This document shows positions 4,865 to 7,920 of a stretch of 64,000 nucleotides of DNA, one piece after another; position 1 is the first letter of the stretch; each line of letters begins with the position of its first letter. Made by a program: the position numbers and the translations under genes. The notes under the pieces are model-generated. The model saw only the letters and a list, made by a program, of their open reading frames with translations. It ran no database searches and had not been told where the DNA came from. Source of the DNA: a virus; the IMG/VR virus record IMGVR_UViG_3300008111_000019, positions 12,590 to 76,589 of that record; one strand, 5' to 3'.

Positions 4865-5076
4865 CTCAGTCTCTGGTTGAGATCCAAGAATACGTAAAGC
4901 AGTTGGAAAGAGAAGAACGGGACATCAAAAAAGATCTACTTAAGATCTGTTGGTACATGCGTGGCATGAGTTACCAAGAAGCATTGATGTTAAGTTATGA
5001 TGAGCGTATGATCGTAGGCGAGATCATAAAAGAAAATCTAGAAACTACTAAAAAAACTAAACTACCGTTCTTTTAA
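4849..5076 (+). CDS. -1 frame extension of the gp26-like protein (gp51/GT-like tail chaperone part)
   Basis: The -1 frame relative to the gp26-like gene encodes about 75 residues. It has a charged helix (EYVKQLEREERDIKKDLLK), then WYMRGMSYQEALMLSYDERM and a lysine-rich end. The pattern aromatic - MS - EA - LS - ER followed by a helix is what the short T-type domains of tail assembly chaperones look like. The frame has no ATG until residue 39 and no ribosome site ahead of it, so independent translation is unlikely. Fusion by -1 frameshifting at 4840-4849 would give a protein of about 363 residues. In T4, gp26 and gp51 are separate hub-assembly factors, and gp51 is the positional counterpart here. 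Correspondence with gp51 is inference. Confidence 0.6.
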   Translation, partial: RQRILTQSLVEIQEYVKQLEREERDIKKDLLKICWYMRGMSYQEALMLSYDERMIVGEIIKENLETTKKTKLPFF

Positions 5077-5192
5077 TCAGCGGGTGCTATCAACTGTTTG
5101 ACTATTTCAGCCACTTGCATACCTGCTTTGACTATTTCATCAGCCAAAGCATTGATATCTATTTCTTGTTCAAATAGTTCGTTAACTTTCAT
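5073..5192 (-). CDS. 39-residue protein, third gene of internal-head-protein operon
   Basis: A short gene whose ATG (5192) overlaps the TGA of the preceding gene as ATGA, a classical translational-coupling junction. The product begins MKVNELFEQE and is otherwise one amphipathic helix (two AEIVK-like turns). Its start resembles the starts of its two operon partners (MRLNEIL, MRLTNL) and the T4 internal protein capsid-targeting peptide MKTYQEFIAE. It could be a small head-packaged peptide or scaffold part. Its stop lies tail-to-tail with the stop of the plus-strand -1 frame extension. No known family was recognised. Support is from the overlap, the sensible composition and the shared N-terminus. 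Confidence 0.6.
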   Translation of the reverse strand: MKVNELFEQEIDINALADEIVKAGMQVAEIVKQLIAPAD

Positions 5193-6283
5193 AGAGTTTT
5201 TTGTGTAATTAATTTGTGCAGTTCTGCACGTTGTTCCAGATTCAGTTGATTGATTTTATCAATGATCTGTTTAGGTACTGTGCCACTTTTGTCTTCTATA
5301 GGCGGAGCACTATTAGGATCTTTTGAAGTATCTCCTGTGGCAAATGCTTTGACAAGATTTTTAGCATGTTCAGGATCTGCTTTGGCCTGTTGCACAGCAC
5401 CTACATTTTTTCCAGCAACATTACCTACGGCTTGAGCAGCCTGTCCAACCTTAGATCCTAACTTGGCCATTAGTCCTGCTTCGCTGATATTTTCAACTAT
5501 AGATTTGCCTGTTCTAATAACTGAATCCGATGTTGGTCCCATAATTCTAGCACGGTCAGCATCTATTTCTGCTTGACTCGGTGCTGCTGCTTTTTTACGG
5601 CTGCCTTTCTTAACAGGTTTATTAGGTTCAGTTGTAGTTGCTGCTGGTGCTGTTGTTCCAGGAGCCGCAGGAGCAACCTCTGGCTCAGCAGCAGGTGCAG
5701 CCGCTGGCTGTTTCTGTTGAGGCTGCGCTGCTTTGGCCATAGCAGATTTAACTTTAGGATCTGCCTGTAATGCTGTTAGTATTGTTTTTTGATCTGCAGG
5801 TTGTAGTGCAGCAATGGCTTTCTGTGCCTGTGCATACTGCGTATCGTTGGCTGCTTTTGCTGCAGGCTGTTCACTGCTAGGTGCAGGAGCCGCGGCTGGC
5901 TGTGATGTTGTCTGAGCAGGTTTAGATTGTGCTGCAGGAGTTGCTGTAGTTGCCGCTGGTTTAGATTGTGCTGCTGGTTTAGATGTTGTTGCTGGAGCCG
6001 ATGTGCCTGCACCAGAAGATGCACTGCCAGTGCCTGATGCTGCACCGCCTGCGCCTGCTGCTGCTGCTGGTTCTGAACCGTCGCTGTCACCGCCGCTGCC
6101 CACTGTGGTCTTACCGGCTTGATAGCCTTTTTTAAATGCTTTGCCTATGCCTGCTATACCGCCGGCTACTGCACCAACACCCTTAGCCACGGTACCTGCA
6201 GCCTTGCCCACAGTTGAGCCTAATTTGTTCAGTAGTGGGCCTTCTTGTATCTGTGATTCAGTGAGTATTTCGTTTAATCTCAT
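5189..6283 (-). CDS. Probable internal head protein, duplicated module with Ala/Pro linker
   Basis: A 364-residue protein starting MRLNEILTESQIQE followed by GPLLNKLGSTVGKAAG. A second copy of the same module, ISE then AGLMAKLGSKVGQAAQ, occurs near residue 270. Between them lies an Ala/Pro/Gln/Thr-rich low-complexity linker (about 65-215) with repeated AQSKPA units and a lysine patch (KKGSRKKAAA). Both modules follow I-x-E, the recognition pattern of the T4 prohead protease gp21 ([I/L]-x-E, cut after Glu). In T4, small internal proteins carry a short N-terminal capsid-targeting peptide that gp21 removes. I infer packaging in the head and possible ejection with DNA. The stop overlaps the next gene, and the start overlaps the stop of the upstream gene. 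Confidence 0.55.
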   Translation of the reverse strand: MRLNEILTESQIQEGPLLNKLGSTVGKAAGTVAKGVGAVAGGIAGIGKAFKKGYQAGKTTVGSGGDSDGSEPAAAAGAGGAASGTGSASSGAGTSAPATTSKPAAQSKPAATTATPAAQSKPAQTTSQPAAAPAPSSEQPAAKAANDTQYAQAQKAIAALQPADQKTILTALQADPKVKSAMAKAAQPQQKQPAAAPAAEPEVAPAAPGTTAPAATTTEPNKPVKKGSRKKAAAPSQAEIDADRARIMGPTSDSVIRTGKSIVENISEAGLMAKLGSKVGQAAQAVGNVAGKNVGAVQQAKADPEHAKNLVKAFATGDTSKDPNSAPPIEDKSGTVPKQIIDKINQLNLEQRAELHKLITQKTL

Positions 6284-7920
6284 TAGGCCACCTTAAGTTG
6301 TTTAGTCATGTAATTTATCAATCTAACTTTGCGATCCGTAGGCAAAGCCATGACCAGTTTCTTAACTGATTCAATATCAGGTGCTGCTTTTGCTCCTTTG
6401 GCAGCCAGTATGGCTTTTCTATCGGCTTCATCTTCTACAGTTTCCCACTCACCATCAAAGTTTATGATCAGTTGGCCGTCTTTGGTATTACCTGCTTCGT
6501 ATTCTTTACCTGTAGTTGGATTAGTATATTTCCAAGTTTCTGCAGGCACTAATTCAGCAGACTGAGCCGAAGGATCTGGCAACTTCATCTGCGAATAAAC
6601 CTGCTTGACTAGTTCTGAGTCAACTCCCTGCTTGTTCAAGAACGCAGCAAGTTCATTTGAATCTGTGGGCGATCCTGCTTTTTGCCAAGCAGAATTTAAT
6701 TTGTCAGCAGTGACCTTTGTGGTTAGATTGGCTGCTTTCTTTTTGATATAATCTAAAGGGCCTTCGTTTAACTGCTGTACACGATTGAACACCAGATAGA
6801 CCTGACCTTCGGATAAAGGTTTGGTCTGTACATAATAACTTTCTGTTTTACCAGCAGTGCCAGTCATTGGCTTGCCGCCTACTTTGACTTGATCAGCAGA
6901 TAGTTTGCCTGCAACAGCACCTTGTGCTGCTGAACGTATGACATCGTTGGCTGTTTTCAATGTCTGCAAGAAACCATCGTTCTGTTGAGCCAATGCTCGG
7001 GCTGCTGCATCTGTAAATGCTTTGTCTGCCAAATATTCTTTGACGCTGAATCGTTGTGTGAACTGCAATAGATCGTTGAAAGCATTGACATCACCACCGC
7101 GAGCATTGTCAACTATGGCTTGGAATCCTGCTACAGAATCTTCAGGAACTAGAATACTGTGTACTGTTTGTTTTAAACTCATGCCCGGCGCTTCTAGACT
7201 CTTGGTCAGGCCCACATTGATCTGTTTCAATCCAGGCATCTTGTCATAGGGCACTACGTCTGCTCTGAGACCTTCTAGCCAATCTCCAATGCCATCTAAC
7301 AGCCAACCTGCCATAGCACCATAGGCAGCAGTCTTGATACCTTTGCCAATAGCAGTTGAAAGTTTTTCACCTTTGAGTAATTCTGTAGCGCCTCTTAGTA
7401 TCTGACCAGCGATAGCACCGCCTACTGGACCACCTGCAAGACCTGCTAGAGTAGTAAGCACACCAATAATGGCAGCAGTCTTTCCGGGATTTTCTTTGGC
7501 CCATATGCCCAATTGCGAAATACCATCTAGTATTTTGCTGTCTGGGAACTTGGTATTGATTTTATTCTTTAATTGATCAAACTTTTGATCAAATGCCTGT
7601 ACAGGCTTTGTGTTCTGAAGGTACTTGCCAATCTTATTGATAGCAGCATCTACTTTACCAGGCACATCTACGGCCTTGCCCAATAATGTTCTGTTACCAC
7701 CTGCTTCAGTAGATGACTTTTCAACTTGTCCAAACAGTTGTTGTATCTGATCAGTGCTTAAACTGGCTTCAATTAAAGGTGTTAATTCCGAATAGATACC
7801 TTCGACTATACGTCTTTGTTCTAATGTTAATCCGTCACAACTTTCCCTAAGCAATTGTCTAGAGGCATTTAGGTGTTGTTCTACGAGTAGTGTTTTATCT
7901 GATAAATTTGTTAAACGCAT
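6283..7920 (-). CDS. Probable internal head / ejected structural protein
   Basis: A 545-residue protein, first in a three-gene minus-strand operon behind the late octamer at 7939-7946 (ribosome site AGG at 7927-7929). It starts MRLTNLSDKTLLVEQ. It holds a Gly/Ala-rich hydrophobic segment near 140-175 (TAAIIGVLTTLAGLAGGPVG), long enough to enter a membrane. Near residue 386 comes LNEGPLDYIKKKAANL, which resembles the cleavage-site module of the downstream gene (E-GPLLNKLGS). The segment after it may be a separate mature part released by the prohead protease. The C-terminus is a short helical domain. Similar proteins are annotated only as structural in marine T4-like phages. Head packaging and ejection are my inference. 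Confidence 0.55.
   Translation of the reverse strand: MRLTNLSDKTLLVEQHLNASRQLLRESCDGLTLEQRRIVEGIYSELTPLIEASLSTDQIQQLFGQVEKSSTEAGGNRTLLGKAVDVPGKVDAAINKIGKYLQNTKPVQAFDQKFDQLKNKINTKFPDSKILDGISQLGIWAKENPGKTAAIIGVLTTLAGLAGGPVGGAIAGQILRGATELLKGEKLSTAIGKGIKTAAYGAMAGWLLDGIGDWLEGLRADVVPYDKMPGLKQINVGLTKSLEAPGMSLKQTVHSILVPEDSVAGFQAIVDNARGGDVNAFNDLLQFTQRFSVKEYLADKAFTDAAARALAQQNDGFLQTLKTANDVIRSAAQGAVAGKLSADQVKVGGKPMTGTAGKTESYYVQTKPLSEGQVYLVFNRVQQLNEGPLDYIKKKAANLTTKVTADKLNSAWQKAGSPTDSNELAAFLNKQGVDSELVKQVYSQMKLPDPSAQSAELVPAETWKYTNPTTGKEYEAGNTKDGQLIINFDGEWETVEDEADRKAILAAKGAKAAPDIESVKKLVMALPTDRKVRLINYMTKQLKVA

Follow-up and report, generated by a model that had tools for sequence, protein, structure and literature searches.

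A late operon of uncultured freshwater T4-like phages encodes probable capsid-targeted internal proteins with conserved candidate gp21-type cleavage sites

A minus-strand operon of an uncultured freshwater virus of bacteria is likely to encode capsid-targeted internal (prohead core) proteins that are processed by gp21, probably at several sites. T4 internal proteins, which are few and poorly conserved, are the model for protein loading into phage heads. We studied a 64-kb stretch of DNA (the window), corresponding to bases 12,590-76,589 of a 111,087-base uncultured T4-like contig (C1), in which the operon occupies positions 5073-7920. As a first-pass annotation had proposed, three genes lie on one strand, and they overlap one another (TAATG between ORF1 and ORF2, ATGA between ORF2 and ORF3); the T4-like N-termini it had pointed out were recovered as leaders on the ORF products and are conserved across relatives. 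The operon and its associated features, in window coordinates, are:

6283..7920, minus strand: ORF1, 545 aa, starting MRLTNLSDKTLLVEQ
5189..6283, minus strand: ORF2, 364 aa, starting MRLNEILTESQIQEGPLLNKLGS
5073..5192, minus strand: ORF3, 39 aa, sequence MKVNELFEQEIDINALADEIVKAGMQVAEIVKQLIAPAD
7939-7946, minus strand: T4-type late promoter octamer GATAAATA, a 7/8 match to TATAAATA
8269..8406, minus strand: Polynucleobacter-1 RNA (RF01718, Rfam), on the same strand as ORF1 and ~350 nt upstream of it
11899..12774, minus strand: gp55-like late sigma factor (PHROG 12791, E 3.8e-80), which would be expected to recognise the late octamer

A late promoter, a leader, conserved sites and a protease encoded in the same genome can all be read from the sequence. 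The octamer GATAAATA, already placed at the head of the operon by the first-pass annotation, has its end 18 nt upstream of the ORF1 ATG. Each of the nine NATAAATA sites in the 64-kb window is followed, no more than 80 nt downstream, by a gene on its own strand, where chance predicts 0.3 such sites. In 48/52 relatives, ATAAATA lies ahead of ORF1 (background 1.3%). The octamer, its conservation as ATAAATA and the gp55-like sigma factor together indicate that the operon is very probably expressed late. Further upstream, the Polynucleobacter-1 RNA was found at the same place and on the same strand in 16/16 related loci scanned (17/17 with the present locus) and therefore belongs to the regular make-up of these phages. 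Between this RNA and the late promoter, window positions 7950-8270 hold imperfect repeats and palindromes (e.g. AACGAGCATATGCTCGTTT, GGGCAAAGTGTGACTGAAC...CATAAT), partly conserved in relatives.

T4 gp21 cleaves after L/I-X-E (PMC9026906), and sites of this type recur along both long ORF products (a slash marks the known or candidate cut position). The N-terminal pro-region of ORF1 carries conserved [L/I]xE sites at E14 (LLVE/Q), E26 (LLRE/S) and E51 (LIE/A); a Gly/Ala-rich hydrophobic segment (~147-205) follows, then internal sites at E371 (LSE/G) and E386 (LNE/GP) and a C-terminal module that includes KLNSAWQKAGSPTDS. An AlphaFold model of ORF1 built from 44 sequences was poor (pLDDT 61). 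ORF2 opens with the leader MRLNEILTE/S and a second site, QIQE/GPLLNKLGS, continues with a Gly-zipper segment, an Ala/Pro-rich linker and a EIDADRARIMGPTSDS motif, and reaches a second Gly-zipper module through a SIVE/NISE/AGLMAKLGS junction. ORF3 consists of the leader MKVNELFE(QE) and a short acidic tail and has one close relative only; six nucleotide changes between the two leave 38/39 residues the same, which argues that ORF3 is a real coding gene.

At several of these positions, conservation fits the pattern expected of protease sites. Among 53 ORF1 homologues, the hydrophobic P3 and the Glu at P1 of E14, E26 and E386 are kept at 94-100%, with a free P2 (entropy 2.1-2.8 bits); the E14 site is present in 96% of homologues, with a leader of variable length. 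E51 and E371 are also conserved in these 53 homologues, but P2 is fixed there as well, so that they may be structural. At the expected maturation site of the major capsid protein (YL-x-E/S), P2 entropy is 1.69 bits versus a mean of 0.41; the free P2 between fixed P3 and P1 in ORF1 is thus the signature seen at the capsid-protein maturation site, which supports gp21-type processing. In six control proteins, a free P2 occurred at 1/15 conserved hydrophobic-x-Glu sites (Fisher p=0.015, a significant but small comparison) and at 0/73 conserved sites of the same form with a polar residue other than Glu at the end. The short leader pattern fits only 35/53 ORF1 homologues, and in the window the ORF1 leader is longer by a 5-residue insertion. 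For ORF2, M[KR]xxE[IL][LI]xE or a close variant starts 39/40 homologues and the second site, [LVI]xE/GP, is present in 40/40, while the spacer from leader to second site ranges from 2 to 8 residues; a variable spacer between fixed flanks is predicted by two separate protease sites and not by a continuous helix. Members of the ORF2 family also share a [hydrophobic]xE/[GSN]FSLFRK-like tail at their end, a possible C-terminal cut by analogy with T4 Alt and gp21, which undergo such cuts (PMC9026906).

The first-pass annotation had further described similar modules directly after I-x-E or L-x-E sites in the operon. All the strings are present, and the two ORF2 modules, QIQE-GPLLNKLGS and ISE-AGLMAKLGS, align at a score of 54 (shuffles: mean 26, maximum 50) and are true repeats. 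The ORF1 module LNE-GPLDYIKK scored 18 against them, with little in common beyond 'EGPL', and a single repeat comprising GPLLNKLGS, AGLMAKLGS and GPLDYIKK was rejected for the last of these. In one relative (L055), a free third gene starting MRINELINE/AGLIGKLGS resembles the C-terminal part of ORF2 (BLASTP E 2e-6, one comparison); that this part of ORF2 arose by fusion of such a gene is an attractive idea, weakly suggested by a low-complexity similarity.

The leader is also found on unrelated proteins of the same genome. A loose leader motif had 6 matches versus 1.3 in shuffles (p=0.002), and a strict one matched 3/133 proteins versus 24/12594 internal methionines (p=0.003). A leader matrix trained on T4 placed ORF2 at the top of the 133 proteins, with a score that chance alone would yield 0.6 times, and ORF3 only eighth; it is too weak to settle single proteins. 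Across all fetched loci, the strict pattern was present at 7.7% of first methionines, a figure inflated because the loci were chosen via such families, and at 0.19% of internal ones. Within one genome, the leader is only modestly beyond chance, and it is conservation across relatives that makes the case. Its carriers include a Gly-zipper protein, a GH19 lysozyme/chitinase starting MRAHEFVTE at C1:91189-91983 (L003:14690-15484) and the product of C1:90662-91192, starting MRAREFIVE; an occurrence of this last protein in cultured cyanophages was not confirmed by search. In relatives of the GH19 lysozyme, the leader precedes phosphatase-like and other domains (domains named by eye), which suggests that enzymes may be loaded into heads. 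An 81-aa late leader protein (MKIKELLE, C1:90411-90656; L003:13912-14157) aligns with the capsid protein exactly over the cleavage site of the latter (KELLE/TATAGSTSAG versus KYLAE/SATAGATSAG, shuffle p<0.001); its residues 4-24, KELLETATAGSTSAGD, are similar to the maturation-site region of the capsid protein, KYLAESATAGATSAGN. Short proteins resembling it were seen in relatives (MRINELFEEASAGATSA..., MKINEIINEMSSSGSTSAG...).

We thus favor a model in which the late operon would yield products with an N-terminal leader of ~8-14 residues that are brought into the prohead core, where a gp21-type serine protease would cut after Glu at [L/I]xE and remove the leaders, at E14 and/or E26 in ORF1, at E9 and E14 in ORF2 and at E8 in ORF3. 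Further internal cuts, at E386 of ORF1 and E264-E268 of ORF2, would probably release modules inside the head. Packaging, cleavage, head retention and ejection with the DNA are what we infer from these sequence features.

The genomic context provides the protease. The operon is neighbored by gp47/gp46, a SegE-like GIY-YIG gene, a gp26-type hub gene, a gene whose tape-measure-like product includes a lysozyme-like domain, and the portal gene (portal, gp46 and gp47 being identified by eye from sequence and from synteny with the cultured phage PA5oct). Just outside the window follow the gp67-position gene, an acidic scaffold gene, gp21, gp22 and the gene for the major capsid protein, in the gene order scaffold-gp21-gp22-gp23. 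The first-pass annotation had proposed looking beyond the window, near the portal, for a gp21-type protease, and gp21 is indeed encoded there as a Peptidase_S77 (PF03420, E 4e-24, C1:9579-10025) and is also encoded in 8/8 operon-bearing relatives. Elsewhere in the window, one ORF of 4,569 aa (22017-35726, plus strand) is flanked by baseplate and fibre-like genes, and positions 45349-56475 (plus strand) hold an apparent glycosyltransferase and radical-SAM (SPASM-like) gene cluster, named by eye only. This same context bears on whether ORF1 and ORF2 could be scaffold-only core proteins (gp67/gp68-like), shredded by gp21 and gone from the head before packaging. Such a fate would fit the many [L/I]xE sites in each chain, a trait of T4 gp22, gp67 and gp68 too, and the presence of the same leader on the gp67-position protein of PA5oct; however, the region between portal and capsid protein already holds separate genes at the gp67 and gp22 positions and for an acidic scaffold, and ORF1 and ORF2 are basic (pI 8.7 and 9.7) like the T4 internal proteins rather than acidic like gp67, which makes a purely scaffolding role rather unlikely.

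Both long ORFs belong to widespread families of uncultured viruses. ORF1 has 491 relatives in IMG/VR (profile-guided scan; 80 fetched) and ORF2 ~74. By tblastn, two ORF1 members and ORF2 had no match in 50,697 cultured-phage records; as a positive control, this phage's capsid protein matched 2,479 cultured-phage records, the nearest being Sinorhizobium phage Phosso, Vibrio phage 2.275.O and PA5oct (66-70% identity). A search of 84,980 bacterial/archaeal species genomes found no ORF1 relative, and Pfam, PHROG, PDB and fold searches with ORF1 gave no match. Homology of the mature parts to T4 IPI, IPII or IPIII was absent in Pfam/PHROG and cultured-phage searches.

T4 IPI is an inhibitor of a type IV restriction enzyme (PMC9026906), and the first-pass annotation had suggested a comparable counter-defence role for the operon. 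Under that proposal, ORF1 and ORF2 would, in the manner of T4 IPI/Alt, travel in the head, be ejected and act on a host defence or in host takeover, and their leaders and sites do fit T4 internal proteins. Yet both are conserved, kept in place and syntenic in many contigs under purifying selection (dN/dS 0.07-0.19), and Pfam and PHROG searches found no toxin, nuclease-inhibitor, enzyme or effector domain in either, so that the proposal is not borne out for these two genes and appears improbable. The gene slot that follows ORF2 changes quickly: its leader proteins, 74-156 aa long, are not the same from one relative to the next. Counter-defence would apply at most to this variable third-gene slot, which is a better place to look for it than ORF1 or ORF2. 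The least probable reading takes ORF1 and ORF2 for tail or baseplate proteins whose N-terminal pattern is an amphipathic helix without a protease role, as the adjoining gp26 hub and tape-measure genes and a helix predicted at ORF1 9-28 might suggest, but a continuous helix does not explain an ORF2 spacer of varying length between two retained sites, the leader also precedes unrelated cargo encoded at other places in the genome, and the hub and tape-measure controls showed no conserved sites of this kind.

Capsid targeting with gp21-type processing, as originally proposed, is retained as the preferred reading and finds good support in the comparison of sequences, from gp21 in the genome and in relatives, the conserved sites with a free middle residue, the leader match to T4 gp24 described below and the leaders on unrelated cargo. 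Within it, the likeliest role of ORF1 and ORF2, judged from their sequences, would be in the core, in head assembly/DNA organisation or in DNA entry at the membrane; such a role is favored over counter-defence because both are conserved, syntenic and endowed with Gly-rich hydrophobic segments. More tentatively, freshwater T4-like phages might share a general loading scheme, in which one leader is joined to changing cargos (Gly-zipper, GH19 lysozyme, phosphatase-like, capsid N-arm copies), ORF1/ORF2 constitute a prohead polyprotein divided by gp21 and some modules are delivered to the cell.

Abundant uncultured freshwater T4-like phages would thus keep a dedicated late operon of such putative internal proteins, with several sites per chain, and other cargo in this group bears that leader as well. 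If this is true, the head contents of uncultured phages become predictable from sequence, and the leader/site rule provides direct targets for proteomics.

Compared with known systems, the operon products combine shared and distinct features. The T4 IPII/IPIII leader MKTYQEFIAE(/A) and ours both start with M[K/R], have a Glu before a hydrophobic pair and are cut, or predicted to be cut, after [L/I]xE at about residue 10; in both systems the cargo is basic and gp21 is present. In contrast, T4 internal proteins have 95-193 aa versus 545 for ORF1 and 364 for ORF2, the mature parts are without homology, ORF1 and ORF2 have several conserved sites per chain, unlike T4 internal proteins, and hundreds of uncultured contigs keep ORF1, in contrast to T4 internal proteins, which vary from phage to phage. 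In giant phages, head proteins (SPN3US gp47/gp53/gp54, phiKZ gp86) are cleaved by the prohead protease behind a short x-x-E motif and end up packaged in the head (PMC5694885); the giant-phage ejection proteins differ from ours in having propeptides of ~80-127 residues, an A-x-E motif and an S80 protease, with no sequence relation. The closest leader match is the propeptide of T4 gp24, which starts MAKINELLRE/ST, since ORF2 homologues start MRINELLTES or MKINELLVES; gp24 shares only this leader with ORF2, which has no recognisable capsid-protein homology. Finally, in PA5oct (Arenbergviridae), a cultured relative with a 66% identical capsid protein, the gp67-position protein gp333 (MKINDIITE/G) bears the same leader on an unrelated 73-aa cargo beside the portal and is marked by its depositors as structural and seen by ESI-MS/MS, which by analogy supports the leader as a putative prohead address in a wider group of phages.
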